NCBI GenBank assembly: GCA_947179485.1
Contig: OX359247.1
Span: forward strand, 50,379,131-50,443,130
Direction of reading: 5' to 3'
Source: Allacma fusca
Taxonomy: Eukaryota > Arthropoda > Collembola > Symphypleona > Sminthuridae
DNA: 64,000 nucleotides
In this document: in pieces, positions 4,255 through 37,400 of the stretch
Layout of the letters: every line of letters starts with the position of its first letter
Numbering within the stretch: the first letter of the stretch is position 1
Program-made: the position numbers and the translations under genes
Notes under the pieces: generated by a model
Database searches by the model: none
Told to the model about the DNA's origin: nothing
The model's input: only the letters and a program-made list of their open reading frames with translations

Positions 4255-4985
4255 CTAAAATAGCGGGTGAGGGTTCTTGCTCTTGCCCAACTCAGGCACG
4301 GGTTGAACCACATCCCAATGTTCAGCGATTCGGTCATTCTCAATGCGGAAGATATCCATGATGGCTATTTCCTTTTCGTCAATTCCTCTGATCTTGACAT
4401 GACTCCAAACCAAGTCTCCCTCAGCAGATATTCTGTAGAAATGAATTTTCTCCTTTTCCTTATTTTTGACCCAATTTGCAGCAAATATCTTAAACGCCTC
4501 TAATCCATCTTTTTCATATTGATTGTGCTCAATGACATCGGTTGTGAAGTACTTGTCCGCTGCTTCAATGTTATGATCACCGATTACCTCCTGGAATGCT
4601 CTCATAACTAATTCCTTGTTCTTTTGTCTTTGAGCTCGGTCATCCAGGCAGGATGATTCTATTGGCAGGGAAGGTGTAGTAGCTGGTTGATTTTCGGATT
4701 GCACTGTCAGCTCGTGCTCTTTGCCTTCTTGTGGGAGGGCTGTGCAGGTGACAATCAGTGCAGCTGGAAGGATAAAATACACTATTATTAATAAAACTGC
4801 TTTCAATTTGTTCCAATAATGTATTAATATAATTAATCCAAGCCCTTAAGATCGTTGATAAACGTAAGCTACCAGAGATGCAAGCTTGTGATATTAACTA
4901 CATATTATTTTTGTATGCTTTTTATTGAACTGAAAATATTTAACTTGCCTAGTGCTGTAACAACCAAAATTTTATGATTGTGCAT
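4255..4985 (-). CDS. Secreted SnoaL-like protein, two exons (gene 3)
   Basis: The model is exon 1 at 4949-4985 and exon 2 at 4255-4763, giving 181 aa. Exon 1 (MHNHKILVVTAL) plus the start of exon 2 (ALIVTCTALP) form a signal peptide. The body is a SnoaL-like/NTF2-fold domain with family marks: FQEVIGDHNIEAADKYF near the start, AEGDLVWSHVK in the middle, EHWDVVQPVPE and NPHPLF at the C-terminus. Bacterial SnoaL-family proteins have very similar endings (EHWDVxQ). The intron has donor GC instead of GT (AG|GCAAGT), with acceptor CTTCCAG. Its closest relative is the gene at 9479-10217, with the same exon phase and flanks. The substrate is unknown; members include polyketide cyclases and many proteins without known activity. 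A start at 4806 was not used because that codon is TTG inside the intron. Confidence 0.85.
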
Positions 4986-9478: not shown

Positions 9479-10217
9479 CTAAAACAGAGGATGAGGATTC
9501 TTGCTCGACTCAGGAACGGTTTGAACGACATCCCAATGCTCAACGATGAGACCATTCTCAATGCGGAAGATATCCATGAAGGCTATGTCCTTTCCATCAG
9601 TGCCTCTCATCCTGACATGGGTCCAAACCAAGTCTCCTTCAGCAGATACTCTACGGAAGTCAATTTTCTCCTTTTCTCTATTTTTGGTCCAAAATCCCAC
9701 GAATTCCTTAAATGACTCGACTCCATCTGCTTCCAGTGGATTGTGCTGAATGACATTAGGATGGAAGTACTTGTCGGCTGCTTCAATGTTATGATCCCCC
9801 AATACCTCCTGGTACGCTCCCATAGCTATTGCCTTGTTCTTTTCTTCCTGAGCTCGTTTTTCTAGGCAGGATGATTCACTTGGCAGGGAAGGTGTTGTAG
9901 CTGGTTGATCTTCGGATCGCACTGTCAACTCAAGCTCTTTATTCCCTGCCTGTGGGAAGGCTGTACAGGTGGCAATCATTGCAGCTAGAATTATTATAAA
10001 ATACACTCTTTATTAATACCTTACTATCAATCCTTGATAATCTATTAATATTGTTCTAGCGTTTAGATATTATTATTACAATTATTATAAGTTACCACAT
10101 GCAAATATATGAGACACATTATTTGCTATGCACACTATTTTTGTATGACTTTTATGAACTAAAATTATTTCACTTACCTATTGCTGCAATAATCCAAATT
10201 TTGTAGCTACGAGTCAT
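9479..10217 (-). CDS. Secreted SnoaL-like protein, two exons, promoter split by a transposon (gene 4)
   Basis: Exon 1 is 10178-10217 (ATG at 10217, MTRSYKIWIIAAI) and exon 2 is 9479-9984. The donor is GTAAGT and the acceptor is AATTCTAG. The product is 181 aa. The signal peptide continues into exon 2 (AAMIATCTAFPQAG). The domain shows YQEVLGDHNIEAADKYF, VIQHNPLEADG, RRVSAEGDLVWTHVRMRG, IVEHWDVVQTVPE and the end NPHPLF. The coding frame is intact. Only 76 bp upstream of the ATG the conserved 5' flank is cut by the transposon 10294-14987, with the old TATA box on the far side. The gene may therefore be silent or driven from within the element. It is the closest paralog of gene 3. A start at 10006 (GTG, in the intron) was rejected. 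Confidence 0.87.
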
Positions 10218-12429: not shown

Positions 12430-14469
12430 CTACACAGTGTGACAGATAGGTAGCAATACAACTTTTAGGTTTTTATCTGGTATAGCAAATAGTTTTTCTG
12501 AAATTTGGTTGAATTCAACAGAGAACAGTTTAGAGCTAGCTAATTTAGTTACATGTATTCCTAGATTTTCGGATGAAATGGGGTAATCAAATAAATTTGA
12601 AACTGTTGTCATTTTCTTAAAAATAACATAAGTATCTGAATTTCGCTGTATTAAATTCACAATTTGTATAATTTCCCCAAGTTTAGTTTTACAGTAGCAA
12701 TCACGGCTACTTGTGCTCAATGTAAAATTACTTGTTACCAATTTTTTAAATTTTAAAAAACTATCGTCGTCATATTGGGGCAAAAGTGGTCCAAAAGAAT
12801 TTTTGATTGATAAAGACGGAATTGGCTGTGAAACATTTGTCTCATTTACGGTTTCCATAATTCTTCGATGAAGCTGCTGAAGCGGTTTGTTTCCTGACCG
12901 TAATTTTGATTTTAGTTTCCCCAAGTAAGATTCAAAACGAAAAGCACTGAAAGCGTCTAAACTCCCGTGTCGCTTAGCCTCATCTGCAAGATGAATTATG
13001 TTGTGTACATTATAAACTACATGTTCCTTTCCGTAAAGACCTCGGTAATGTTCCACAAACAATTTTAAAAGGTCTCCTCCAGTGGTGTATAAAGTGACAT
13101 TTTTGGTAAGCAAAATACGGATACCTACGCTGAGTAACATAAAATTAGAAAATACTTCGGGTTTAAGTACGTTTTGAAGAATGACAGGGCCTACGTAAAT
13201 AAGGAACAAACGGCATTCTGTTGCTTTCCATCTGGAAAAAACTTCTAATTCTCGAGGTTTTCTTTGAAATTCGGAAGGAATGCAAGATCTGCACTTTCGT
13301 AGGCTTTCAGATATTACTTTCACTTCATTGCTTGACAGTCGTGTCCTTGTGGGGCCTTTCGTCCAAAGATGTAATAACTTTCGCACAATTCCAAGGCAGA
13401 CTAAGTGCATGTACTCGAGTGGGATCTGAGTACACATGCCGATGCCTATTGTTTCCAATGGGGAAGGTTTAGAATCGTAAGGGTACAAATGATGTTCTTC
13501 CTGAGCACGGGCAGTAAACGATTCATCCGTTCTTACTTTGTCATTAAAATATGGGAAGACCACTTTATTTTCCCACACCCCCTCCGTCTCACATTTTTCA
13601 CACCCAAAATAACCTGAATGACCTTTAATTGCTTTGATAAAAGCTCTTGCGGGCGCATCGCAGACGAATATGCACTTGGATTTATTGATGTGCAACAATT
13701 GGTCGCCAATTTTCAATCCTTCTCGAAGAACGGCTACGAATTCTGTACAAAATCTCCCAAAAAAATTGTCTAAGCTTTTTGGTTTTGAATATCCCAAGTA
13801 AATTTGAATCCCAAATGGGGTCTCATCCAAACATTCATTTACAATTGCTAAAATTGGCCACAGTGAAAGATTTGAACTATTAAAGGGTGGTATACCATCA
13901 ATATTAAATTGAAGAGATATTGTGGAGACACCAGGTTTTAAACCTGCTTTAAGTTTTGCTAAAATACCATCTTTCAAGCCTAAATACAGTAATTCTCCTG
14001 TACCGCACTCAATAACATTACTAAACAGGGGCGTCTTTAACAATGTCTTCGCACTTTTCGGAAGTTCGGGATGATATCCAGAAAGTATGTGAAGTAACTT
14101 GTCCACAGCTTGATGGGAAATATTTTGTTGTAATGCCCAATTTTGGAGTTGCTGCTCAAGTGTTTCAGGAATTGAATCTTCGTGATCCTCGAATCTTCGA
14201 GTAACTTCTTCATTCGTGGAGTAGGAAAATTCCGACTCAGTATTACTGTCACCAAAGATACTTTCCTGAAGTACATCGGAATCACTGTCACTGTTATTTT
14301 GATCATCATAATTTGTAGGCTGATGATTTTGTAGGGAAACACTTAATTGACTTTGCCGAGTTGAAACCGTTGTAATTTCTAATGATGATTGCAAAGTACT
14401 TAAATCTAATGCAACTGCTTTTGCAATGTGACGGCGAGTCTGTCGTTTACTTAGTTTTACTTTACCCAT
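12430..14469 (-). CDS. TNP2/CACTA-like transposase, intact single exon
   Basis: A 679-aa frame with a true ATG (MGKVKLSKRQTRRH) and no stops. The first 110 residues are basic, then Ser/Asp/Glu-rich. The core has features of transposases from animal CACTA-like elements: LQFNIDGIPPFNSSNLSLWP (about residues 185-205), FVCDAPARAFIKAIKG with a zinc-knuckle-like CEKC just after, PLEYMHLVCLGIVRKLLHLW, RKPRELEVFSRWKATECRLF, and VYNVHNIIHLADEAKRHGSL followed by FRFESYLGKLKS. Asp residues of IDG and CDAP and an acidic residue near YMH are candidate DDE/D catalytic positions. I infer these from conservation and not from structure. The family usually has D where LEYMH has E. Length is in the usual range for a full transposase. 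It would cut and join the CCCAAGT ends. Confidence 0.8.
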   Translation of the reverse strand: MGKVKLSKRQTRRHIAKAVALDLSTLQSSLEITTVSTRQSQLSVSLQNHQPTNYDDQNNSDSDSDVLQESIFGDSNTESEFSYSTNEEVTRRFEDHEDSIPETLEQQLQNWALQQNISHQAVDKLLHILSGYHPELPKSAKTLLKTPLFSNVIECGTGELLYLGLKDGILAKLKAGLKPGVSTISLQFNIDGIPPFNSSNLSLWPILAIVNECLDETPFGIQIYLGYSKPKSLDNFFGRFCTEFVAVLREGLKIGDQLLHINKSKCIFVCDAPARAFIKAIKGHSGYFGCEKCETEGVWENKVVFPYFNDKVRTDESFTARAQEEHHLYPYDSKPSPLETIGIGMCTQIPLEYMHLVCLGIVRKLLHLWTKGPTRTRLSSNEVKVISESLRKCRSCIPSEFQRKPRELEVFSRWKATECRLFLIYVGPVILQNVLKPEVFSNFMLLSVGIRILLTKNVTLYTTGGDLLKLFVEHYRGLYGKEHVVYNVHNIIHLADEAKRHGSLDAFSAFRFESYLGKLKSKLRSGNKPLQQLHRRIMETVNETNVSQPIPSLSIKNSFGPLLPQYDDDSFLKFKKLVTSNFTLSTSSRDCYCKTKLGEIIQIVNLIQRNSDTYVIFKKMTTVSNLFDYPISSENLGIHVTKLASSKLFSVEFNQISEKLFAIPDKNLKVVLLPICHTV

Positions 14470-14960
14470 TTTTAAAATGTTGACCTTGCGAAATACCTGT
14501 TACCAATTAGTTACTACTTACAATGCTTTTAAATTAAGTTGACGAAAAAACTACTCACCAGTTAATACTTTTTAGCAGCTCTTCAGATTTCAGAATGGCT
14601 TACACGAGCTTGAATTATGATTGACCGTTAAATATATTCCTCAACTAGTTGAGGAAAGATATGCCGGGAAAAATGGAGTTGGATTTGAGCATGTCGAAAA
14701 ATATTTTTAGCGAATATTTGACTTCGTTTAGCGGAAAACTTATTCGTGGAATAGCGTAGTATTCTGACGTAAATTTTACGTTAGAATTTCACCATTTCGA
14801 ATACGCGCTTGAATTGTATGTAGATATACGTTACTGCAACGTCCGTACTTTACTACTTTTTTCAGGTAAACAATTAACGTTAATCTTTCGTTTAAAAATT
14901 AACGGTAAACATTTTTACGTTATTTCAACGAAAATTGTTCTTTTTGCTCTAACATTTACG

Positions 14961-15448: not shown

Positions 15449-16080
15449 TCAAAGGAGAGGGTGAGGATTTTTGCTATGAGCCAAATCAGGAATAGGTTGA
15501 AATTGGTCCCAATGTTCGACAACCTTGCCATCCTCAAGTCGGTAAAGGTGCATGGCTGCCACATCCCGGCTAAATTTACCTCGGAGCTTGTGTTGTATCC
15601 AGACATAATCTCCCTCAGCGGTTGTTCTTCTAATGTCAAGGGGCTCTTTCTCCCTTCCTTTTCCCCAGTCGATGATGCACTCTCGGAGGCTGTCAACACC
15701 ATCAGCTAACAATGGATTGTGCTGAATGTAGGTTGTAGGATGAACGTACTTTTCCACGACACTTGTGTCATAATCATGGAAAACTCCTTTGAACAATCCA
15801 AGAACGGTCTCCAAGTTTTTGGCTTCTTTAGCTCTTTGGTCCAGGCATGTCCCCTCGCTTTGAGGTAAAGGAACCGTCAGGTTGTCCTTATACTGATGAG
15901 CGGATATGTCAGCATCTTCAAAGGGGTGAGGAAAGGCTATGGTTGCGGAAACCAGAGCTAGACAAACGTGCAATTTGAAAAAAATACAAATAAAATATAT
16001 AAACAAAATAAAGTAATTAAATGGTCAGAATAAGCAAAATTTGCCTTACCAAGCCCGACAAGAAATTGAATGGATTTCAT
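15449..16080 (-). CDS. Secreted SnoaL-like protein, divergent two-exon member (gene 5)
   Basis: Exon 1 is 16050-16080 (MKSIQFLVGL) and exon 2 is 15449-15957. The donor is GTAAGG, the acceptor GTCTAG, and the product is 179 aa. A signal peptide runs through LVSATIAFPHP. The domain has KGVFHDYDTSVVEKYVHP, YIQHNPLLADG, RRTTAEGDYVWIQHKLRG, KVVEHWDQFQPIPD and the C-terminal NPHPLL. Exon 2 has the same length (509 nt) and phase as in gene 3. The protein is clearly further from the other four, so it probably represents an older duplication. It is the rightmost gene of the array. Confidence 0.86.
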
Positions 16081-17663: not shown

Positions 17664-20600
17664 TCAAGTGAATCCTTCCCGATCCAACCGGCCATTCATA
17701 GGAGTTGCTACTTTTGGAAATCCATAGGAATCCACAGGAAGATCCAAATAAGGATTGCTTCCGATGCCGTGACTACCATTATTGGCAAGGTCTGTATTTC
17801 CACTCAAATTTTCCTTCTTCTTCACGGGTTTGGTATTTCCTCGACATGCCAGCGCAAACTTGAATTCTGTTGTGAATTCATTCCAGAACGAGTCCTGTGC
17901 AAAATCATACCACAACAACATTACCTTTCAGAGACTCTTAAAAAATTTCAAATCAGTAAGGGCAGAAATAACAGGAAAATACGGCGTGTAAATTAGCAAA
18001 GAGCCTTTTAACTTAATTACCCCTTGTATTTTTGCAGCTTGTTTGCTTTTCCACACAAATTCCAGCAAGGCTAAAAGAACCGCAAATAACGAGCCACAGA
18101 CCAACACAACAAAGACACCGCCCACGTTTGCCAGCCTCAGAGGTTTCACTGCGTCTCCGTCAGATCCCAGCTGTAAAATTACAACCGTTAAAACAATGTC
18201 ACCGATCAACTTAGATTTTTATATGAACCTCCACGTATCTCACGAAAAATATGTCTACTATTTAAAATTTTGGAAATTAAGGGGCTTGTGCAAGTAATAA
18301 TTTCAAGATATTTTCTACCGCGCAATTCGATTCCTTCCGTTCCTCTTTCCACCATTTTCGTTTCAACTCATCCAGTGCGCCAGCTTCTTGTAAATTAAGA
18401 ATCCCGCTACTAAAAAACTGCAAATATTTTGAACCTGTACAAATATACCAAAGGTTTTTAAATATTATTGCATGCTTCCTCATAATTATAAGATAAAACC
18501 ATGAAGTAATAATAAATACAGGAGCAAATAACAATTTAAAAACCTTTCGGCAGAGCAATTCCATATCCTTTGCTATCAAGCAGCCCTCCGACCTGAGCAA
18601 GTTTACATTCTCTTTCAATAGTGTACTCAATAACGGTAGATTCCATAAAGAAAGCATAGTTGCCATTACTGGCCTTGACTTTCTCTATTCCGTGTTTATT
18701 GTCCTTCATTAGAACCATCTGCTTTGCATTTGCTTTCACAATGTTATCCCAAATTTGCTTGTTTAACTTGAAGGGTGAGTCCTGTTAATAAAATGCAAGC
18801 ATTCGATAATTTTGATACCATTTCAAAAGTATTTGTAACCAATGCATGAAAGAACTATTCTTAATATTTGCATATTGATGACTTACTCTAAAGAACGATA
18901 CCGTGGAGCCAGTTCCAACGCATCCATACTTGACTTTATCTTGTTTTGCCAAATCCTCCAGGTTCTTTATGGTTTCGTCCAAGTCTTGAACAATCAGGAA
19001 CGTAGCGAGATTAGCCGTGTAAGAAGATACCATAATGAGTGTGAAGAACCACCAGATCCCGGCAATCATCCGTGTTGAAACCGCTCTAAGATGTATAGAA
19101 AATAAAAATTATGAATGCATATTTGTACTACAGTGTGTCTTTGGAAATCCAAAATATAGATACAAAGCAATTTGAAGGATTAGTGGTTGGCAATTAAGAG
19201 CGTTAGTACTTCGGAGCCACATCGGAAGGCTGCCTGAGAAGCGAAGCCATACAAAACCAGAGAGAGTTGGTAAGTGAAACGTCGTTGAGATACACGAGAT
19301 CCCCCTCACGTTGTTCTTTGCAGGGGAAAGCCAAGGTCCACTCATAAGGAGATACCCTACTCAAACAAGTCACCATGTCAGTGTTAATGTATTTGTAATC
19401 AATAATGTGCATTATTGTCACTAAACTACACAGTTAAAGATTGTTAGATCTCTGTTGCAGACGTGAGTTGTCTGCAGGATGAATATTCACGTTTAAATTG
19501 ATGTTGCTATGTAAGTATAGGGTGACTATAATGTTTTGCTTGTCCTCTAGTTGACATAAGAGAGTGACTCATAAAAATTTTGATTCCCCCAGTCTGTGAG
19601 AAAAGTTATTAATTTTCTACAATTTTAATTCATTGACTGGGTCAATAATCGATGTTTAATGTGCTGAGGTTGTTTTTTTAAATTACAATTATTCGATATT
19701 GGATTCTCACAAAAAACTTATTTCAGAAAATGCTTTGGCACTAGCTTGTAGGAAATGTTCTGGGCTTTGCGATGAAATATTGCATAGGTCTCTACGTTTA
19801 GAATTGCGAACATGACAGGGATAGGGAACAAGGTTGGACAAATTTTGTCTGATGAAAGAAATGCGCTACTTATTAGGGAAGAATACCTAATGTTGTCAAT
19901 TTATCATGGAAGACCGTGTGACGTGATAAGTTTCAAAGCACAACGCTTGTAACAAATTTCTATCAACGATCCATATTGAAAATTGAGGCCATAGCATATA
20001 AAAATTTAAGGTAGTTTATGAATTATTTCAAAATATTATCAACGGGAACAAAAGAATTGGCTTTATTTAACCCTTTGCACACTTTTTGATGCTGTAGCCT
20101 CAATTCTGAGATGGACCGCTGAATAGTGCTGATATTTGGACATTGAATCCTAATGAAATGTATAATAAACTAGTGTCAGAGCTCTTTCTGAAACAAATTT
20201 TGTAAGAATTCAAAAATGAAGAATCGGCATTCTAAAAATACCCGGCTTTGTTTCATGTCTTGAACCCTGTGACTTCATACATTGACCTAGGCCAATGAAG
20301 TAAATGTTAGAAAATCTGGAACTAAATTTGCTCCAAAATGGGGAAGTCAAATATTTTATGAGTGCCTCCCTTAATGTCATCCCTTATGTGGACTACAGGG
20401 GGGTGCATAAGATTATAGTTACCCAGTACCATGTGTGTCTACTGGGGAATCTCTCGACGTTTGTACCGATTGGAAAGCGTTAATTAAAAGATTAAAACTC
20501 ATTTCAATGTGAAATAAGTATCTTCAAAATTAATCTACAGAGTACGATACACAAACAAAATATTACTCTTGCTCTAAACAGTCACTCGTTTCTGAAAGAA

Positions 20601-23600
20601 AAAGAAAAATACTTTGGGGCAACGTCAGAGCCTTGTTGCATGAGAGACCCAATGGTAAACCAGAAACTGTTGAGGGAAGTGAACTGGTTCACTAGCTCGT
20701 CTGGTTCCGTAATACACGGATGTGGATTACACCATTCGTATGGAGTGAGCCTTTTCAATTTGAATTTATACGTCCACGTTGATAATTGAGAATTAACTGA
20801 TTCAGATTATCTTTAACAAACATCTACTACCTGGCTAAGATGTACAGGATAACCGATACGCCGAAGAATGCGATGAACATGTAGAGCCACACATCCTTTG
20901 AGAATGGAGACAGGAAGGAAAACAAGCTGGGCGGCTTCGCTGTGGGCACCACATACAAAATTGATATCCCGAGGTTCATGAAGGGCATAGTAAAATCCAC
21001 TGCTTCTTGCCTATCCTTGCTGATAGTTAAGTCCGCTACAGCAATATCGGCTTCCTGAACATTAACAAAAACCTTTATAAGGGTTTCCAAATGCTAATAA
21101 AACTGTATCAGCCGGGGAACTCATAAAATTGATGTAATAAACGATCATAAATGAAGTAGGACAAATTAATAGATCCCTTACACCCCGAAGCACCTCACTG
21201 ATCATGCCATTCCACTCCCCCGTAGTTTGATTACGCTGTCCATAACCTCCATCACTCACAGGCTTGATGATGTACTTGAATCCAAGATTTACTGACAGTT
21301 TCTGCAGTAAATCCACAACGAACCCTTCGTACCGAGCATTTCCCAACAGTGGCTTTTCCGATCGGGTGAGCATCGTAAATGGGGCGTTCTAATCACAAGT
21401 AATTACCATTACATCAATACAATGTTAAGTGAGCAATGACTCATGCCGACTGGGATTACCGAAGACATAACTGACTGTCTAACTTTAGCCAATGAATGCT
21501 ATATATTCTAATATACTAGTATTAACCCTGGAATTTCCTCAATTTGGACCAGGCAGTGGAGTTCAGGTTACAGCTATAGTGGAACATTTTATGATAGCAC
21601 ACAAACTGATGTAGAATCCCACAATTGTAATAGGTCATGATTCATGACAACATATACTACGTTAGGTAAATCGGAAATTACTCACCAGCATTGTACTAAC
21701 TCTGAATGTTCGATTTCTGATGCTCAAGGCATCAAGTTCATCTTTAGAAACGGTTGACACAGGTCTTGACCAATTGAACTTCGAAGCAAACTTAGAGTCC
21801 CAGGCTCCAATTTTTTTCAAACCCTACAATGATTATGAAATAATAATAATTATTAGTATCATTATGTAATTAAGTACTTGTCCCTATTATGTAGTCGTAT
21901 TTCGACATATAGAATAGCCCTAATCTTTAAAGCTGTTCACATATTCTGTGACACCTGCTTCCTTCCAATTATAACAAATCGTACAAACCCTGAAACAAAT
22001 TCATTTGTAAATAGCTTCAACAACTTACTTCCGGATCCTTCAACTGAATAACGTCCAGGTTGACATCCGTTCGGAATCCCGTGGTATTGAATTGGATGAG
22101 ACCTGTCAAGCCTTGAAGTTGAACCTGGAACATGTTTGGAGTATACAGATCGATCCATTACTTCTTAAATACATTTATTCAAACTCTAACAAATTATTAA
22201 ATACATACATAGAAATTAGGATAGTAATTTTCATACCATTTTCATATAATTAATAATAGAGTATCCGTGTGGCCAGGTATCCGTGGCAGAGCAGTTCAAA
22301 CGTTTGATTTCAATACGTTGGCTGCTATCCAGGACGTGCAAGGCTTTAGCAAGTAAATAGACAGCATCATACAGCAAAGCCGTGTCGGTCTATTTGAGGG
22401 GGTTTAAATTAGCGGTAGATAATTAGCCAGCAGATTAAATTGTCTCTAACGGTAAAATGAGCTTGGAGTCATTCATTTCATTAACCCTATATATAATTAT
22501 ACCTTAAGAAGTTGCACATGATTATTTTCTGGCGCCTTTCCATTACTCGTCATCCACAATGAGCTGCCGTAATTTCCAGTGAAGGAATTCCGATTGGTTT
22601 CGGAATGTTGCTGTTGATATTGTTGCAGAACGGTCTGAACCTCTGGTCGATTCGGATCCACCATCCTAAATGCGGTGATGTTCACTTCAGCAAAGCGGAA
22701 GTCCTCCAGGTCGATCGTGTGTAAATCAAGGGTAGTTAAGACATAGCTGTATTTGTATGTCATGAGTCCAATTTGTTGCGCTTGTTTGAGAACTCCCAGG
22801 ATTTTACGAGTGTCACAGTCAAGAACAATATTCCTTATTTTTGTTTCCCGAAGGATTTCACGGAACAGCGGCCTAGCGTATAAATAAAGTAAACATAGAG
22901 ATTTTGAGGTAACTTCTTGCGTGCAGTGTGTCCTCTGTCTGTACATAGCTATACACAATTCTTCAGGATTGTCAAGAAATATCATATATCATGATAAATA
23001 TCTGAGCATACATATATGTACATATGTACGCATGTATGTATATATAGGTAATTATATATGCTAAGAAGCAAAAGTGAGCCTGCTTAAGTTTTTTGTTGAC
23101 AGCAAAATTTTACAGAGGAATAATTAAAAAAAATAATAAAAAGAGAAGCGAGACTTTTGCGTCCTGATTGCTCACAAACAAGTACAACTTGATCGGGGTC
23201 TGGAATAATTATTATTGGATCCTGAAGAAGATCACTGACTGAGATCAAAATTCATTTTTGTAAACATTGTTCGTATTCCTATTTTTTTTTCAAAATGTTT
23301 GATAAATATTGCATATTTTTTCCAAAGAAGATGTACTTTTTGGAATTCCTCTAAATTGAAAAAAAAAATCCCTTGAAAAATGGTTTAAAAAATACCTGTA
23401 ATCATCCCCGTAAGGTAATTGCCTTAAGATGGCTTGGCGTTTGGGTGGGATGGAAGCTTTAAGTAAATCCTGCAGTCGAAATAAGCCTTCGTCACCGTCG
23501 TAAATTACGATGTAAGACTCCCAGCCAAAGGCTTCCACTAAATCATTGTAAGCCTGAAAATTACCATTAAATCCTTCCTCACAATCATTTCCCAATCCCT

Positions 23601-24999
23601 TTGAGGCTGTCATCCAAACAAGCAAATGAATTTATGTAGGTTAGTAGTTTCACACATTGGGAATAAACCCGATCTATTGAATCCCGTCAAATGACTGTCA
23701 GTATATAGGTAGCATCAATAGCGATCAACCTGAAATGACATTCGGTTCGTAGAACATACATAGAACAAACACCTACCCTGCTCAGTGTGAATGGATGCGG
23801 GTACAGATTAATCATGTAGTTCTCCTTCCTAATCCGGAAATCCCATTTGGTCTCAATGTGAGGAATCTCAAATGCATCACAAATCGATTGAACATGGCTG
23901 GCAGACTCGTGAGTCTGAGGTCCGAAAATGGCAGCTACTCCCTTGGACATCATGTTGCATACTAAAGTATTCAGTGTATCCCAAGGAACAAAAAATTATA
24001 ACTATGATTTTTTCAACGTAACTACAAACTAAAAAAATTAATTACAATTTCCCTGTAGTTTTTTCATTCATTTTTTGCGTCAGCTTAATTTCCCCTCTAA
24101 TGAACCCGGAAAGAAAATAATCCTCAATTATCCGAACAAAAGTGAACGCAAGAAAGTACCAACAATTAAATAGCATCCAGTACTTATCGTAAAATGGTAC
24201 GTACCTTGGGAGGAAGCTGAGACGGAGTTGGCCGCCTGGAGATGCTCAATCTGAGCTTCAATACGGGACCTCGGAAGTAAATTGGGATCATCATTGATTC
24301 GCTGGACGGCATTTTTAAACGCGGATTTTTCATAGGGCTCCACATCATCAAATAATGCTCCTGGAGGTAATTTGTCAATAATGTCATTGAATAAGTAATC
24401 ATTTCAAGTGAATAGTTTCAAAAATACACAACCAGCTCTTCTCTATTGAAGACTGTACTCACGTAAGACTTCCCTCTACAACCAATACACAAATCCCTGC
24501 TCAGTTACTTTTTTTCCCTAAAATTTTGAAAGCAATATAATTAGCCCAGAAATTAACATGGAAGTTAAGGGCAGGATCATTTTATGTGAGTGCAGTCTTA
24601 AAAGATATCATTATTTTTGAGCACGTAGGCTATATAGGCAATGCAGTTCGCTCCATTTTTATAGGTCCATATCTACAACAGCCCGAAGAAAAAAAACCCG
24701 AAGAACCAAACTGCTCTTAAAGAGATGAGTGCTCTTATTGTGGCATGACAAGGTAATAAAATTACGCCGTATTTTAAGATCTCAAATAGTATGCACGAAA
24801 AAATAAAGTTTTTGAAGAAAATAATACTAGTAACAAAAATATGAAAAAACGTAAACAAGACTGTGGAATTACCAATCTGAACAATCTTCGTGTGTCCAGA
24901 AAGTGATGAACTCTGACCCCGACTTGGGTCAAGAAGAATGAGCTGCAGCAGTAAGATAGAGAGTAGCACGAAGCTACTGTGAGCCCCTCCCCCTACCAT
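17664..24999 (-). CDS. Kainate-type ionotropic glutamate receptor subunit (gene A), complete
   Basis: Coding exons: 24873-24999, 24205-24360, 23777-23961, 23396-23553, 22503-22872, 22237-22389, 22029-22124, 21686-21823, 21182-21388, 20831-21054, pore exon 20613-20750 or 19210-19356, 18887-19085, 18544-18781, 18319-18434, 18021-18170, 17664-17894. Phases agree throughout; 961 or 964 aa. Residues 1-29 are a signal peptide ([20 protein letters not shown]). The amino-terminal domain runs to about 461. S1 has [20 protein letters not shown] with the ligand-binding Arg. M1 ends at ILYILAR. M3 is at about 660-680, S2 has GTGSTVSFF and FMEST (agonist contacts) and [13 protein letters not shown]4 is at about 848-875, and a 75-residue cytosolic tail follows. 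The subunit would form glutamate-gated cation channels at synapses. Oddities are two alternative pore exons and SYTANLATF in M3. Family assignment is sure; the kainate subtype is likely from [12 protein letters not shown] and pore similarity. Confidence 0.93.
19210..19356 (-). CDS. Gene A alternative pore exon with Arg at the Q/R site
   Basis: 147 nt, phase 2 in and out; acceptor TTGAGTAG, donor GTACTA. It covers the same segment as 20613-20750: VSPYEW, then an unusual linker [16 protein letters not shown], then the pore loop [15 protein letters not shown] and VAPK. Aligned to the conventional MQQG, it reads LRQP. The Q/R position is Arg (codon AGG, 19233-19235) and the Gly two residues later is Pro. 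It is intact with good flanking splice sites, so it is a true exon and not a relic. It sits 124 nt from the next exon. Confidence 0.85.
20613..20750 (-). CDS. Gene A pore exon, Q version
   Basis: 138 nt, phase 2 in and out; acceptor TTGAAAAG, donor GTATTT. It encodes the M1-M2 linker ([12 protein letters not shown]) and the pore loop [15 protein letters not shown] followed by VAPK. The Q/R-site codon is CAA at 20636-20638. This is the conventional form, expected to give Ca-permeable channels unless edited. Confidence 0.9.
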
Positions 25000-28478: not shown

Positions 28479-31400
28479 TTAGCTGGAAGGTTCTCGTCGT
28501 TCCTGGTCAAAGGCGAGGTATGGAACACTTCCTGATACACTCTGTTCCCCTGGAACCTTGTTCTTCCGGACGGGCTTCGTGTCTCCCTGACATTGCAAGG
28601 CAAATCGAAGCTCCTTTATGATTTCCGTCATGAAGGATTCCTAAGGAAATAAAAACCCCGAGTGGATTAAATGGAAACTTCCAAAACTAATCTACCACCG
28701 TTACAACACACCAAGGGATAAATTACTGAATTAGTTTCCCATCACTTCAAAATAGTCACACTTACAACTCCTCACAACGGATCGCTGCTTGGAAGTAAAA
28801 CCCCAAAGTACATGAGTATTGGATTAGTTGGTTTTATCTGTGAGTCAGTCTTAAGTAGATACTTAAATAGTGTAAACAATCTTATTTGAATTACAAATCC
28901 CCGTCAATTTTTTTTCTACAAGGAAGGGGAAAAGATAAACAAAACTTACGCCTTCATGCTGAGCCAGCTTCCGTGATTTCCACAAGAATTCGATAAAGGC
29001 CATCACACATGCTAAACCACAGCCTCCAAGGAGGACCACGAAGACACCACCGACATGACCCAAGGTCAGAGGTTGAGCACCCCCAGTGGAAGTAACTTGC
29101 TCCTGCAAGTAGCATTTTATCACATTGTGCTCTTAAACTGAATTAAAAACTTCTTACTTTGAAGATAAATTTGTCTTAAATTATTCTTTATATAAAATAA
29201 AGACATAGCACAGGAATTTAGGGTACCTACACTAATAGTAGTAATTATTATAATAATTCTGAAAAATAAAACTCACTTTATTACACTTCCCACCGCCTTT
29301 CTCCACACTCTTCCACCACTTCACTTTGAGCTTCTCTAGCTCCCCTTTTTCCTGCAGCTCTAAAATCCGGCTGTTGAAGGCGTCACGGTACTTTGAGTCT
29401 GTGGATATTATAATCCCAGTGTGGGGTATATACATGCATCACGCTTTTTTGTCTTTATTTTTAATATTAAATCTAGTCCCTGTCTACTGAATTTCGTTCA
29501 ATGATGATGAGGATTATAATAATGGACGTACTTTTCCTTAAGGCAATACCATATCCTTTGGAGTCAAGAGGTCCTCCCAGCATCGTGAGGCGGCAGTCCC
29601 TTTCCGTTTGATACTCAATGGATGAGGACTCCATGAAAAAGGCATAGCGACCTTCTTCCTTCCTGACTCGGTCAACTCCTTCTGTATTGCTTTTGACGAA
29701 AGGCAAGGGCTTCATGTTTTGCATGTTATTATAAATCTCTTTGTACAAGGGAAAGCTCGAGCCCTGGACATTGTAAAAGTACATGAGGACATACAAGATT
29801 ATTTTTAAAAAAGTTCTGATAGATACAAAAATATCAGATTTATAGCCACAAATTTATTTTTAGATGAGCGAAATTAAAAGGGAACCTTGAAGAATGATAA
29901 GGTACTTCCAGAACCAATGCAGCCATACTTGACCTTATTTTGTTTCGGAAGATCTTTGATCTCCTTAATCCCTTCGTCCATACCTTCACTGGTGAGGAAA
30001 GCAGCTAAATTAGCAGTGTAGGATGAAATCATAATTAGAGTGAAGAACCACCAGATTCCAGCAACGGTTCGAGTGGAAGCCGCCCTTGAAATGCACATGA
30101 AATGTTAGATTGTTCCTAGGATATTTCACCATTATCAGCACTTACTAATTTGTACTTGTATGCAAAACAAAACATTGATCACACCGAGAGGAACAATAAT
30201 TATTATTAGATATCTTGCAGTGATTTTAAACGTGCTTCCGCGATAAAACGAATTCAGGGGTCCATGCTCTGAGGTCAAAACAGCATTGATTTATTTGATT
30301 AAAAAAATGTAAATGGCATATTTCCTGAAAAGCAGCGCAGGGACTGAATAGAATTCCAAAGCTTTCAAATCAACATATATTAGAGAGGATATTTTTTTTA
30401 GGGTGGGGGGGGGGGGAGAACTGGAGGACAATAAGATTTCAAATGTGTGTTATGTACTATTACCAAGAAAGCTCTTTTATGTATAATTATGTGTACGCTG
30501 GCTCGGACTCCGACTTTGGGATTGAAAGCACGTACAAAGTAATTATTCAATACCTCAAATGGGGATTAGTAATTTTGTAATATAGTTCGCATTTGATTAG
30601 ATTTGTGACAAGTACACTTTATCACTGGTGTGTATAACTGTGTACTACACTTGAACTGCGGGGAATAAGGATTGGTGCTTACTTCGGGGCTATATCGGAA
30701 CCCTGTTGCATGAGGGATCCCCAATTATGCCACAAGGCGTTGGACAAATTCAGGTCATTTTCTAGCTCCTCAGGGTCATCTTTGCAAGGGTGAGGATTCA
30801 ACCATTGGTACGGTGTTATCCTAGCAAGGACACTCATTAACTTACAACGGGCTCATATTTTGTTACTCTCCCTCAGAAAATATTCAATCTTCTCAAATCC
30901 AGCCTATACTATACATAATGCCTATCTCTTGAGCTGAACGACCATTGTACGCTGCTCACAAAAATCAAGATACTACTTTTAATATGTCCTTCAATATGTA
31001 CATACTCACGTTGCATAATACCGTGAGAACAGTTAAGAAGCAAATAATTCGGTATAGCCACAGGCTTTTTGAAAATGCTAAAGGAAGCATCATAATTCAA
31101 ATTTTGTATATGTATTCCACTTTTAACAAACCTGGCAATGTTTATTTTTGCTCCTTAACTGACAACACTTACAAATAGATACTTGTCAAGGTAGAATACC
31201 TATATACGCTAGCTAAAATAAGAATATCATTCTTACCTAACCCTTATTGGTATTTATGCATTTTGACGTATTTTATATCTATATGTGTAGATATCCTGTA
31301 GTAGATTCAAAATGTAAAACAAAATGTTTCAAAATCTGTGGTAGCTCAAAGAAAAAGTGATTGAAGTGAAAAAGTGAGTAGACTCATTACTCCTCTCCAA

Positions 31401-34400
31401 CAATTTCACTAAATTCTCCAGCTCTACGAACTACAACACTGCAGTGGAAAGAAAATTCATGTCAGAGATGAAAGAGTGTTGAAACGAAAAAAAAAAAAAT
31501 TAGTCAGATTTACAATCTAAAATCCCACTCCCTCTACTCAATCCAAGTTATATACAGTACATATAGTTACTAATGATTTGTACATACTATCAGAGATGCT
31601 CAGGGTCATCAGTTTTTAGGTCAAAAGTTGATTAGGATTAGGAATTTGACAAAGACGACGCCTGCGGAGCTTCAATTAATCATCACTGTAACGCTTTTGA
31701 ACAAGACATGTGGAAGCAATAATAATAAATTATTGTTACATTAGACTGGAACAGTGGAAGCATCAGCATGTTGTAAACAATAAAATAAATAATCTCTGTC
31801 AAGAACAGGTAAAGGTTCTCAGTAAGCCAGTAAGACCTGTACAGTATAGACTTGCACAGGTATCACCAATCTTTTCTAAAATTATTAAAAAAGCTCCATA
31901 CATAATGATGTGAAAGGTCAAGCAGGATTAAACTACTGTACAGTATGCATAGATAAGTGTGTTGAGCTGCCACTATAATAATATTATAGTGGCAATTATT
32001 ATCAAGGCTTGCCTACACTATATTACTACTATTACAAAACACCTTCTAGAAAATCCGCGAGTAGCTGATAGTCTAAAGGGAAATTGATTAGCTCATAAAA
32101 GGTAGTAAATACGGAAAGGTGAGAGTATAGAAAGTACTTGGGTGCAATATCGGAGCCTTGCTGCATGAGGGATCCAATAGTGAACCATAAACTGTTTGGC
32201 AAATGCAATTGTAACTCCAACTCGTCGGGCTCATCCACGCACGGATGTGGATTCAACCACTCGTAAGGACTCAACCTTTAAAGTTGGGACAAACCACCCA
32301 ATCACTAGTACACATTTCAACCATTAAATCTGACCCACCGATCAATAAAATTCCCAAAGGATGACTTTCCTCTGAATTGAATATAATCTACTATATTAAA
32401 TATTCTCTACAATTTTTAGTTCATCATTTGTAATTGGTAGTATGTACATATATGTAATTTTTTATATATATTCAAATGTTTTTTTTCTAAATGTATATAA
32501 ATAATTAATGGAAATAAGCTCGTGAAACCTCAACTGGTCCTCTGCTGACTTAAAAGACTATCCTAGAATGGTGTACGGACTAATTTACAACAGCCAATAA
32601 ATTGAAATGAAAAAAGGGACACAGTATTAGAAAAAAACACACGAAAAAAAAACACACATCACAAGTCTGCTGTGTCAAACCGTACTCTCTCAACAAGAGC
32701 TCCATACAGAACATAAAAATAAATTCAGGGAAACCAACACTCTAACATTTAGTAAGTTGAGCAACGAATCAAGTACGAGAAGAGCCCAGAGTGCTTTGTA
32801 TTATTTTGAAGATATGTAATAGTATTATTACTGTATGTGGCTACAAATTAAATTAATTAAAGTGTATAGTCAAGAGAAGCAAGAAGGGTGGAAAGGGTCC
32901 AAATCAATCCTTTTGTAGTGCCAGGGCAGCCATGACAAGGGAAAGAGTCATATATGGTTCCCAGAACAATTAAAAAGAAATTCCACAATCATTATGATTA
33001 TCGGATAAACGGATTAAAGAAGAAGGATTCACATTATTGTAAGATAAGAACAGAGCGGAATAATAATTATATATGTATGTGGCGGGGGGCTTGTCAGTTG
33101 GGAAATGCTTACTTGGGCAAGATATCACATCCTTGAGCCATGAGGGACCCAATGGCAAACCAAAGAGAGTTGACCAAACTAAATTGATTTTCCAGAATCT
33201 CTCCAGCATCTTTACTGCAAGGGGGTGGATCTTGCCATTCATAAGGCGCAATTCTATCACACCCCACCCCCCATATATACAATAACATATAGAGTGACCA
33301 TGTGTAATGATACGTGATTATACAATCAAAAGCACCAGCCTCTCACACTTTCCATCCTTCACAGAAGATAAATGGTCATGTGTTTTTTTAAAAATTTATA
33401 CATGTAATTAATTATTATGTATTTACAAATTAGCATAAAATACATTATCCCCACATCTCACTTGTACTGTAATTCCCATGTGATCTTGTGGGATAACTCT
33501 TAATGTAGGAGCTATTATTACTATTACTGTACAAAAAAAAAACACAAGAAGCTGTTATGAAATTCATTCAAGGTAGCTATTAATCAATACATTTTCAGTT
33601 TACAGTCTCTCCATTTTGTCCTACAGTACAGTACATTGCAAACCTCCCTACGTCTAATAATTGTAATTAAATACATATAATTGCATAGTAAGTCCTCTCA
33701 ACGGTACGACTGTACATATATGCACAGTTCCGTGTTCAAGTCAGTCACAGCAAGAGTTCCACTAAGTCTGGTACAGGAGAGTGCATTAATCCTCAAGGTA
33801 CATATTAAGTAAAAGTTTATAAAAATTAAACAAATAATAATTACAGATATTCAATAAATCATTATTCTGTGGTGAAAAATTAATAGAAATTACTACTTGT
33901 CAGTTATATACGTACAAATACTTACTTGGAAATAGAAAGAAACCAAATCTACGGCGCATTCCAACTTAATATTTTTTTCAGCAAAAAACAAAATTATATG
34001 TGTAATTACTTGTAGCGTGGTAGCCTCTGTCAACCAGTAAAAGACAATCAAAATAAAATAAAAATAAGCTGTGCCTCACTTCAGCACTTGTGCAGTGGGA
34101 GTCCAAACTGACTACTGTACATGATTTTTCAATTCTTAATCAGTTCTAACCTTCTATGTACTTGTTATCTTGTATATCTTGTCCTGCTTCTCTAAATTCC
34201 TACATGATTGTGTCGGCATTCTTTTGGTGGGAGAAAAGTGTAACCTGAGCTACATACATAGGATTAATTGAGCTTAACTGTATCTATCACTAAAATGCAT
34301 TCTTGCTTTTTAGTATAATTATCTATATAAATAATTACTCAGTAGAGCTTACTTGTAGCTAAAGAGTTAATTTTCAATGTAGGAAAAATTTTGATCAGTT

Positions 34401-37400
34401 AAACCTTGGAAGGAGTCTTGAGATATACGGATTAATTATTTTAAACGGATTGTGAGGTATGAAATGCATCTGGGAAGGACGTACCTGGCAAGAACGAAAA
34501 GGATGAGGGAGACTCCTAAGTATGCAGTGGCCATGTAGATCCAGACTTCATAATGGAAAGGTGCGAGGAAGGAGAAAAGGGACGGTGGCTGCTTGTCAGG
34601 TTGCCGGTACAGAATGCTAATTCCCAAGTTCATGAAGGGCATGGTGAAATCCAGGGTTTTCTCCCGGTCATGAGTGATGGTCATATCCCCGATGCCCAAG
34701 TCCGCTTGCTGTCAATTTATTACAACTGTCCACACTTATCCCTCCCTCTAGCACACTTGTATAGATATATACATTATATTTCCGCCATCAATTTCCAGCG
34801 TACAACAACTTTCTACACTAGACTTGGAACACTGCACTTCCATTACTCCCATTATACCTCCGCCTCAAGGCACTCCCTCATCGCTTCACCCTCTCAAAAA
34901 TTAAGTTAGGAGGGAAAAGACCACAGTAAAAATGTCATTTTTTCCCCCTATACGCAATAATCATACATACACACGCACAGACACATTGGGAGAGGGCAGC
35001 TAAAAGTCCAAGCACATACATACGTACAAGGCGTGTATACTGTAAATGTATGTACGTAGGTTCTATACGCATAATTACGGCAACTCTCAAAAAGAAATTC
35101 CCTCAGATGTAGGGAATTCTCTCCAATAAAATAAAAGTGCTACCTCGAAATGCAATGAGTGAGAGGAATTTGGGAGTCTCGAGGCGAAAGTCAGGAGAAA
35201 GTTATTGTTCCCAGTTTTATTTGGAGGAAGTAATTAAATTCAACGGTGGAGGATGATACTATGAGTGGAAGCTCATTACCCCAGCAAGGATTTCTCCCAC
35301 GACGCCGTTCCAACCATATTTAGACGTATTGTCGGGGTTTCCATAACTGTTGTCTAGAACTTTTGAAATGTTAAACTTGAAGGATAAGGATTGTGCGAGG
35401 AGGTTGAGTAAATCTACACCGTACCCTTCGAACGTCCCATTGATCTCCATTAGGTAAGGGTCGCTCTGAGGGATGATAATAAAAACCATTACTACAGCCC
35501 CAATTAGTGTTAACTTTCGTAAAGACATCTCTCAAAAATGTTTTTTCTTCGTTATTTGTATCGCATTGAATCCTGGCCGAGCTATCTACTTGTACTTAAT
35601 TTATATAAATGTTTAATAGAAGCGCAGATATCCGTACCACTTTTGAACTGACTCGTAAAGTTCGGTTCTTTAAATCCTCTTCTTGGATCTTGAGGGTTTC
35701 GTGTTGGGTTCTCACCCATGTGAAATGCTGTTTATTTCGATCTGGTCGGGAATCCCATATGCCAACTTTAGATAATCCCTAGAAAAATATTGTTCCAGTT
35801 GAGTCTCAAAAAATAAACTTTGAGCATTACAAGCATCAAGAACTAGAGTTGATTTCATTTCCTTCCAATATTATCTCCACTGATTTTAGATTTCACTAAC
35901 CTTTTGCGTTAGTTCCATCACATCCAATTGAAAATTGCTACGATATCCAGCCCCATCCAGTTGTATGATCCCAGTGAGGCCTTGGAATTGAACCTGGAGA
36001 AAGGATTTTACTCTGTTATTCCCTTCCCTTTGAAAGGCAAATGCCCTCTACGTATACATTGCCTTTATAATTAAGAGTAGCTATTTTTTCAGGGACATTG
36101 GAGAGATCAGGATATCCTGATTGCTCAAATGTTTTTTTTTCTGTGGGGAAGCCAGTCCATAGATTAGAAATAAATTGTTTTTGTGCAACGGAATGGATTT
36201 AACCTTTTTGAGTGCATCCAAGAGGAGATGTCCCTGCTTCCAAGTGTCGGTGGGATTAGCGGGATTACAATTAAGTGACTGCGGAGCAAAGTTTCCACGC
36301 TGGCTAGTGTCCAGGGCTTGGAGTGCTCTTGCATATAACTCAATGGCATCGTAAATCAGGGCTGTCTCCGTCTGACAAAATCAATTACAACAAAAAGCTA
36401 ACAAACGCTCACACACACACATACACACTCGCACACACCGAAACAAAACAGTTGGCTTTCCCTTCACAGCTCTGGCCAGCACTCCTTGAGCCTACGCACA
36501 TATCATGATAAATATCATTGTAAACTTATCTATGTACACTGCATGTTCCTAGTATAGAATCAAAGTTCCCTTGTTCCCCATGGCCCATCGGAACCTTTTA
36601 ATTCCAGAGAAACAATAGAAAAACAAAGCCGAAAATCTTGCTTTATTCCCGTATAAAAATAAAGCCCATATTTTTATTACTCTAGCCCTTTAGCCTCTCC
36701 CTCTCGCAACGTATTTGAATTGAAGTTCCTCTTTTTTCCCATCCTCTGCATCTGAGTCCTACTGGTTCCGATTTACATTTGAATTCCGGGGAAAACCCTC
36801 CCTTCCAAAGATATTCTTTCTCTATGTACTACCCAACGTACAATGGATGCGTTTGAGAGAAAGAGGAAAAAACGGTCGTTGCTTTCGTCCACCAAAGACT
36901 AAGAGCTTTCTCTTTGAAAGGTATAGCCGCTGGACTGACCCTCATTAAATCTTGGTCATAAATCTAATTTATTCTCCTAATGTCTTCTACTTGGCTTCTC
37001 TGCCCTACGCAGCTCTAGTATACGCACAATGAGATTCACTACCTTCCTATTTATGTACATGTGTGTCTATAATTATTATACATATATGCACACAATTATA
37101 GAACTCTCCTACATCTATGATTAAATCATCCTCCTATAGGCTTAGGTATATATATGGCTATGAATGCCTCTCGTATTTGAATCAGCTGCAGAGCTTATAG
37201 CATTAAGCATTTAAGCACCATATCGTATACACATTTGGATGTGCAGGATACATACATACATATATGGACAAAGCTGGAACTCCAAATCCTTGTAAACGGA
37301 ATTCTAGGAAACCTCTGGCTCTATTATGCACGCACTATTAGTACTACCCCAGTAGAAACTAATCGTATCATTTTCAAAGTCTAGTAAAGTACCTACTAAA

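Follow-up and report, generated by a model that had tools for sequence, protein, structure and literature searches.

The DNA analysed here, a stretch of 64,000 nucleotides referred to below as the window, comes from the springtail Allacma fusca, where it lies on chromosome 3, and holds two adjoining ionotropic glutamate receptor genes, A and B (Table 1). The 16-exon model of gene A is open from ATG to TGA with either of its two candidate pore exons, giving 961 or 964 amino acids, and it is identical to the Allacma gene model P0005 at 931 of 966 aligned positions. Three Pfam profiles lie on it above cut-off, ANF_receptor (residues 54-412), Lig_chan-Glu_bd (454-567) and Lig_chan (582-864), with the ATD, the two-part ligand-binding domain and the Lig_chan core standing in order. 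Among the 60 solved chains listed as nearest to its 190-residue core, kainate subunits lead, with GluK3 at the top, followed by AMPA subunits, and many of the named homologues among those listed are kainate 2 or KaiR1D models. Judged by domain order and nearest relatives, gene A encodes a glutamate receptor subunit of the kainate type.

Table 1. Receptor gene features, numbered from the first letter of the window
Feature	Position	Strand	Basis
Gene A (ionotropic glutamate receptor of kainate type; each isoform with 16 coding exons)	17664..24999	-	exon model
Gene A exon upstream of the pore pair, encoding the end of S1 plus M1 and ending at 20831	20831..21054	-	exon model
A1, first pore exon of gene A (138 nt, phase 2-2), encoding LMQQGSD with Gln (CAA) at the Q/R site	20613..20750	-	exon model; used in P0005
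Intron separating A1 and A2, 1,256 nt	19357..20612	-	exon model
A2, second pore exon of gene A (147 nt, phase 2-2), encoding LLRQPSD with Arg (AGG) at the Q/R site	19210..19356	-	exon model; used in P0001
Gene A exon downstream of the pore pair: M3 (SYTANLA) and start of S2	18887..19085	-	exon model; A2 junction in P0001
Gene B exon upstream of the three pore exons (M1)	34485..34708	-	sequence
B1, first pore exon of gene B (141 nt), with Ala at the Q/R site	33113..33253	-	sequence
B2, second pore exon of gene B (138 nt), with Gln at the Q/R site	32138..32275	-	sequence
B3, third pore exon of gene B (138 nt), with Gln at the Q/R site	30683..30820	-	sequence
Gene B exon downstream of the three pore exons (M3)	29886..30084	-	sequence

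Gene B carries three pore exons, with Ala, Gln and Gln at the site. For the M1-plus-pore cassettes of another kainate-type group, described at the end, a comparison by local tblastn over fetched Allacma loci rather than the whole genome placed the two states in separate genes, Arg in C5 and Gln in C8, as far as the fetched stretches show.

The two pore exons of gene A

An initial annotation of this DNA had described A1 and A2 as intact exons for the same segment, and we recovered both in the same places and phase, on the minus strand, between an upstream exon that ends at 20831 and a downstream exon that starts at 19085, as annotated. AG precedes and GT follows both exons, neither contains an in-frame stop, and the splice-site scores of A2 fall inside the range of the constitutive sites of gene A. 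Adjacent, homologous, of similar length (138 and 147 nt) and in the same phase, they have the features of an alternative exon pair. They encode the same segment with 45% amino-acid identity over 47 aligned codons, a likeness above chance, since a whole-genome search with A2 recovered, besides itself, nine other pore exons (E values of 1.2e-6 to 4.2e-5 for the best six and 0.07 to 1.4 for the remaining three). Between A1 and A2, codon positions 1, 2 and 3 differ in 21, 15 and 34 of the 47 codons (Fisher p = 1.7e-4 for position 2 against 3), and the same test was weaker for A2 against B2, C1b and B3 (p = 0.0018, 0.012 and 0.058). We consider it probable that the pore loop of gene A is supplied by one of these two tandem homologous exons through alternative splicing, as one case of a recurrent arthropod pattern.

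In an alignment with GluK3, the Arg of A2 coincides with the first of the two Gln in MQQ and occupies precisely the Q/R site. Editing there converts a Gln codon of the genome to Arg through a single A-to-I change, while the Arg of A2 is already encoded as AGG, so it is not an editing product, and RNA editing as its origin is ruled out. A2 also departs from A1 at about 25 other exon residues. Two residues past the Q/R site, at +2, the filter glycine has become proline; A2 retains Gln at +1 and Asp at +4, and its M1 and M3 neighbours are unchanged in kind. The proposal in the initial annotation that the Q/R switch is built into the DNA holds in part. The interchangeable exons, the genomically fixed Arg, the gene model P0001 and a Folsomia counterpart (both described below) speak for it, but the change is more than a Q-to-R swap, because A2 replaces Gly with Pro and the Folsomia exon lacks both that Gly and the acidic +4 residue.

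In vertebrate AMPA and kainate receptors, the change from Gln to Arg lowers or abolishes Ca permeability [PMC8257547, PMC12226733]. Under alternative splicing of A1 and A2, each transcript would carry a single pore exon, Gln subunits would form Ca-permeable, polyamine-blocked channels, and Arg subunits would join them in tetramers, cutting both Ca entry and polyamine block. The choice of exon in gene A would then be the equivalent, by splicing, of the ADAR editing of this residue, and the tandem pore cassettes of arthropod kainate-type genes carry Gln, Arg, Ala or Cys there.

Because the Arg exon also turns the filter glycine into proline, the idea of a simple Ca switch has a serious competitor: the exon may be used while its subunit hardly conducts, acting in a dominant-negative or structural manner, with splicing tuning the size of the current rather than its Ca selectivity. 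We regard this as quite possible, although we lean away from it. It fits the altered filter of the Folsomia exon, the other Arg cassettes, which read RQGSG or RQPSG and lack the +4 Asp, and the poor conduction of homomers with four Arg [PMC12226733]. The homomer result, however, does not extend to mixed tetramers, and the residues and neighbours that A2 has retained argue for a conducting subunit.

Age and probable maintenance of the Arg exon

The Folsomia model P0012, a cluster of 4 sequences, reads RITPYEW...YINDLSLFNALWVIMGGLFRQ at the place of the pore. It contains an Arg exon with the motif LFRQKPN, in which RQ is followed by K, P and N. In a tree of 30 flank sequences from which the pore exon had been removed, P0012 groups with A, C1a, C1b and Orchesella (93), and B comes next (100). 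In a tree of 65 pore exons, the exon of P0012 pairs with A2 (UFBoot 89; about 50 residues), and A2 is also its best match among the 64 other pore exons, with a score of 113 vs 85 for the next. The relationship is one-sided in reverse: the Folsomia exon is only the 16th best of the 64 matches of A2, and A1 is the 36th. Both trees rest on hand-picked hits, with 36 of the 120 listed proteins supplying pore segments; for the 65-exon set, one camel segment and two that matched C1a and C1b exactly were removed, seven segments from Arg copies and nine exons of Allacma were brought in, and the C8 and C9 exons were left out.

A single clade of the A1, A2 and C1 exons was rejected by the AU test (p = 0.021), and with it a recent duplication of A1 inside gene A after the split from C1. 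Neither A2 as sister to A1 alone (p = 0.078) nor the Folsomia exon placed among the A-line Gln exons (p = 0.10) was rejected. These data suggest that the P0012 exon is a probable orthologue of A2, and an Arg exon that predates the split of Allacma and Folsomia and has been maintained under selection is supported, with moderate statistics. AlphaFold2 models of P0012 and P0005 (23 aligned sequences each) place M1, the pore helix and M3 in order, at low confidence, the loop having a mean pLDDT of 33-51 per ten-residue block.

Could A2 instead be a decaying or cryptic copy, spliced in rarely or never? Its identity to A1 is only 45%, whereas A1 shares 81-83% identity with the C1 genes, which hold a single pore exon between short introns, and A2 is absent from P0005. 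Nevertheless, the open frame of A2, its intact AG and GT, splice scores like those of constitutive sites of gene A, its codon-position bias and the use of the probable orthologue in the Folsomia model make such decay unlikely.

Exon choice and gene models

The lengths of A1 and A2 are both divisible by three, so joining both or skipping both keeps the frame, and the frame does not enforce exclusivity. At A1/A2 we found no exclusion device among those looked for, namely frame shift, splice-site closeness and intron pairing. The A1-A2 intron showed no pairing with its two neighbouring introns beyond that of shuffled sequences, the observed energies of three intron pairs being reached by 17.5%, 90% and 55% of 40 shuffles. 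To our knowledge, an enforcing device is not required in all cases of mutually exclusive exons.

Of the public Allacma models, the fuller one, P0005, uses A1 only. P0001, on a separate contig of 1,375 bases, joins A2 directly to the M3 exon, which is the 19210/19085 junction that the initial annotation had predicted. P0001 is a partial gene prediction, and it may be ab initio, because its first residues derive from intron. With the full-length query, a protein search returned nothing for the A2 region at E <= 0.001 (3 candidates), and the short A2 exon as query recovered P0001. That A2 is an assembly error or part of another gene can be set aside with near certainty. We found nothing in its favour; the published assembly was built from HiFi reads at QV 58.7 [PMC10427803], and the separate contig carries the same A2 exon followed by the same M3 exon. 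This exact copy on another contig led us to reject an assembly artefact as the source of A2.

Tandem pores in arthropods and known systems

Two pore segments stand ahead of one M3 in 46 of the 120 best homologues (of 6,693), which is not a frequency, as the ranking score rewards a repeated pore and enriches double-pore models. An Arg copy is present in 17, of which 16 also hold a Gln copy. In Vespa velutina, isoform X12 (P0016) holds two pore segments and isoform X10 (P0069) is Gln-only. In the 65-exon tree, gene B exons B1 and B3 fall with exon types from the tandem-pore models of the arthropod kainate 2 / KaiR1D type (76 and 97).

Such models, among them a named isoform, and the lengths of A1 and A2 in multiples of three, might be taken to mean that both pore exons are included together in a real protein. 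We hold this to be very improbable, given the enrichment of the listing in double-pore models and the single pore exon in each of P0001, P0005 and P0012. Two re-entrant loops between M1 and M3 would, moreover, break the known receptor topology.

As read from these gene models, tandem pore exons are not peculiar to gene A, and splice-chosen pores look like a recurrent arthropod pattern. A broader view, for which we see the prospects as evenly balanced, is that tandem splice-chosen pore cassettes are a general DNA-encoded alternative to Q/R editing, in which Arg arose several times in different cassette types and some cassettes carry Ala or Cys. The types with a separate origin of Arg would be the springtail A2 line, the wasp/bee QGCD cassette, the GTLLRQGSG cassette and a spider cassette.

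The initial annotation knew of no ionotropic glutamate receptor with alternative pore exons. Open-licence papers likewise yielded neither an account of this kind nor any prior description of splice-chosen receptor pores, and term counts over the main text of individual papers on insect mutually exclusive exons and human tandem exons found no mention of glutamate or kainate receptors. If both isoforms are made, splicing in arthropods would switch the very residue that ADAR editing switches in vertebrates. Such a switch would be set cell by cell, without editing enzymes, and would offer an explanation of how neurons or muscles of arthropods might tune Ca entry via kainate-type receptors. The natural series of filters (Gln, Arg, Ala, Cys and altered neighbours) would be useful for permeation work, and we suggest a check of those models of such receptor genes in which two pore loops are joined.

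Compared with ADAR editing at the Q/R site of GluA2, GluK1 and GluK2, gene A shares the residue and its two states, and the same consequences for Ca permeability and polyamine block are to be expected [PMC8257547, PMC12226733]. Unlike in editing, the Arg of gene A lies in the DNA together with the other differences of its exon, and the choice would be made by splicing. Some fish AMPA subunits also have a genome-encoded Arg at this site, like A2, but with one state per gene and no known choice of exon.

The flip/flop exons of vertebrate AMPA receptors, like A1 and A2, are tandem homologous exons of an ionotropic glutamate receptor; they are spliced in a mutually exclusive manner, lie at the end of S2 and shift the frame when both are included [PMC8257547]. 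Gene A, in contrast, exchanges the pore loop, and all four combinations stay in frame.

The tandem pores of the arthropod kainate 2 / KaiR1D type share with gene A the position of the segment and a similar length (44-50 residues). They are known here from public gene models, where the two copies are often joined; in the wasp and bee models the Arg copy, or a close variant of it, stands ahead of the Gln copy, and gene A differs in its order, with the Gln exon first and the Arg exon second. In another kainate-type group, cassettes of M1 plus pore occur in models from Armadillidium, Scylla, Penaeus, Tribolium, Schistocerca and Pollicipes. There, as in gene A, an Arg copy (GTLLRQGSG, or with RQPSG) and a Gln copy (GTLMQQGSD) stand in one gene model; unlike the exons of gene A, the repeated unit spans about 86 residues and includes M1.

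The two pore exons of gene A

The window lies at C10:50,379,131–50,443,130, on chromosome 3 of the springtail Allacma fusca, and carries gene A, a kainate-type ionotropic glutamate receptor gene. The genome used in our searches comprised 392.74 Mb in 91 contigs; the accessible part of the genome description (PMC10427803) gives 392.8 Mb in 95 scaffolds for the published assembly GCA_947179485.1, with chromosomes 1–4, X1 and X2 of 81.9, 75.61, 66.08, 58.81, 55.59 and 48.07 Mb, respectively. The frame of gene A is unbroken with either pore exon (961 or 964 aa), and all introns of the model start with GT and end with AG. The Pfam domains ANF_receptor, Lig_chan-Glu_bd and Lig_chan were detected in that order, kainate subunits were the best solved chains, and, of 966 positions aligned between the Gln model and the public Allacma protein P0005, 931 are identical, with mismatches around exon 4 and five added residues.

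Receptor genes, pore exons and other open frames, by sequence and position
Feature	Sequence	Positions	Strand	Description
Gene A	window	24999 (ATG) to 17664 (TGA)	minus	16 coding exons, model read from sequence
A1 pore exon	window	20750-20613	minus	phase 2 to phase 2
A2 pore exon	window	19356-19210	minus	phase 2 to phase 2
Gene B pore exons (B1, B2, B3)	window	33253-30683	minus	three in tandem, all phase 2-2; Ala, Gln, Gln
C5 pore exon	L011 (chromosome X1)	4775-4915		separate kainate-type gene, Arg codon CGA, TFLRQGSGLNPK
C10:41.1 Mb pore exon	L012	5034-4894		kainate-type gene, Cys at Q/R site (YLCQGA)
SnoaL-like frames	window	9479-10009; 15449-16024	minus	two open frames, ~5.4 kb apart (Pfam)
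689-residue open frame	window	12430-14499	minus	no Pfam match at E <= 0.001

The initial annotation had described two intact pore exons here, one with Gln and one with genomically fixed Arg at the Q/R site, the pore position switched by ADAR editing in vertebrates. Both exons were found, and alignment to GluK3 puts the Arg of A2 on the first Gln of LMQQG; its codon, AGG, differs from CAG at two bases and from A1's CAA at all three. The exon pair is a real and well-founded observation. Using a splice-site score matrix built from the constitutive sites of gene A (14 acceptors, 14 donors), acceptor and donor scores were 1.6 and 5.6 for A1 and 2.8 and 4.1 for A2, with leave-one-out scores of the constitutive sites ranging from -8.3 to 7.6 (acceptors) and from 1.6 to 9.6 (donors). 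The predicted 19210/19085 junction is present in the Allacma gene model P0001, which comes from a contig of 1,375 bases, is identical to A2 and then continues directly with the M3 exon; being a prediction that begins within an intron, this model supports the sequence and the junction and is no proof of a transcript. Over 47 codons, A1 and A2 differ 21 times at codon position 1, 15 times at position 2 and 34 times at position 3 (p = 1.7e-4 for position 2 versus 3), and the same test on A2 gave p = 0.0018 with B2, 0.012 with C1b (a receptor gene on contig C1) and 0.058 with B3.

Elsewhere in the window, the 689-residue frame is perhaps derived from a mobile element.

Proposed splicing switch

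Most likely, either A1 or A2 is spliced in between the exons carrying M1 and M3. On the model of GluA2 and kainate subunits, as treated in the accessible parts of PMC8257547 and PMC12226733, Gln subunits would be expected to allow Ca passage and polyamine block, and Arg subunits in mixed tetramers to lower both. The Arg isoform may lower current and not Ca selectivity only, given that Pro replaces Gly at +2 (counted from the Q/R site) in A2, that neither the Folsomia exon nor the GSG cassettes have the acidic +4 residue, and that the accessible part of PMC12226733 describes this residue as critical to polyamine block and reports that homomers with Arg conduct poorly. The reading frame does not force the choice of one pore exon in gene A, and a search for intron pairing at its pore exons gave none that stood out. 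Two complete pore exons and an Arg written in the DNA speak for the splice-chosen Q/R switch of the initial annotation, an interpretation that is partly supported.

Pore exons in the Allacma genome and their ancestry

A whole-genome search with A2 matched ten places, namely A2 itself, A1, three in gene B (the neighbouring receptor gene) and one in each of two C1 genes, C5, C10:41.1 Mb and C9; B1 matched twelve, the new ones being C8 and a weak match at C10:64.3 Mb. Of the genes at the matched places, only A and B carry multiple pore exons, in searches that are incomplete for glutamate receptors, a pore exon in L007 (C9) having surfaced only in local comparison. Each C1 gene has a single pore exon, flanked by introns of ~90 to 135 bases. 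The Q/R-site residue is Gln in A1, B2, B3, C1a, C1b, C8 and C9, Arg in A2 and C5, Ala in B1 and Cys at C10:41.1 Mb; a Gln counterpart of the C5 Arg exon is in a different gene, on C8. A genome-wide PF00060 search (150 of 510 candidates scored) also gave many Lig_chan matches in long single open frames of 500–700 residues and more, suggesting a sizeable complement of divergent ionotropic receptors.

Trees were built from 65 pore exons and, separately, from 30 flank sequences with the pore exon left out. Because a pore exon has ~50 residues, tree supports are moderate. In the 65-exon tree, A2 paired with the Folsomia exon (89), this pair joined a Gln-bearing Halocaridina segment (87), B1 fell within a clade of QGCD-LPK type segments (76), and B3 paired with a segment of the dragonfly Ladona and one of the mayfly Cloeon (97), followed by an ostracod segment (81); the Arg copies of GSG type, C5 included, formed one clade (100). 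In the flank tree, Folsomia P0012 grouped with A, C1a, C1b and Orchesella (93), with B adjoining (100). Among 64 exons, the top match of the Folsomia exon was A2 (score 113 vs 85 for the next), and A2 itself matched Halocaridina best (133), with Folsomia 16th and A1 36th. A2 as sister of A1 alone was not rejected (p = 0.078), nor was a grouping of the Folsomia exon with the A-line Gln exons (p = 0.10). One clade of A1, A2 and the C1 exons was rejected (p = 0.021). At these moderate supports, we read the sequences as suggesting that genes A and B share an ancestral gene in which several pore exons were already present, and that the Arg exon is probably older than the Allacma-Folsomia split.

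Paired pore segments in other arthropods

The accessible open-licence literature on the topic yielded no account of an ionotropic glutamate receptor with alternative pore exons. A homologue search matched 6,693 proteins, and a motif scan for the pore helix in the best 120 gave one helix in 71 and two in 49. Both pores precede a single SYTANL motif in 46 of these 49, and P0002, P0003 and P0084 have them in separate or distant copies. Within the same best 120, Arg occupies the Q/R site in 17 models (14 species by name), 16 of which also have a Gln copy, with only Arg in Folsomia P0012; Tribolium supplies four of the 17, so the entries are not independent, and the ranking score favours a repeated pore, so these counts give no estimate of frequency. 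In Vespa, Bombus, Apis and Timema models, among others, the copies lie 46 to 49 residues apart (one pore segment). The distance is ~86 residues in Armadillidium, Scylla, Penaeus, Tribolium, Schistocerca and Pollicipes, where the unit comprises M1 and the pore, 75 in Dufourea and 133 in the spider Caerostris. The repeat in these gene models suggests that the paired pores of relatives are tandem exons.

In models such as P0016, P0017, P0026 and P0043, two pore loops are joined in one receptor, which may reflect misannotated exon pairs or, rarely, inclusion of both exons.

The exon pair of gene A opens onto a wider arthropod pattern. YLCQGA of L012 resembles the FLCQGAD copies that, among the best 120, are paired with Gln copies in P0037 and P0040, and TFLRQGSGLNPK of the C5 gene resembles the Arg cassette of crustacean, beetle and locust models.
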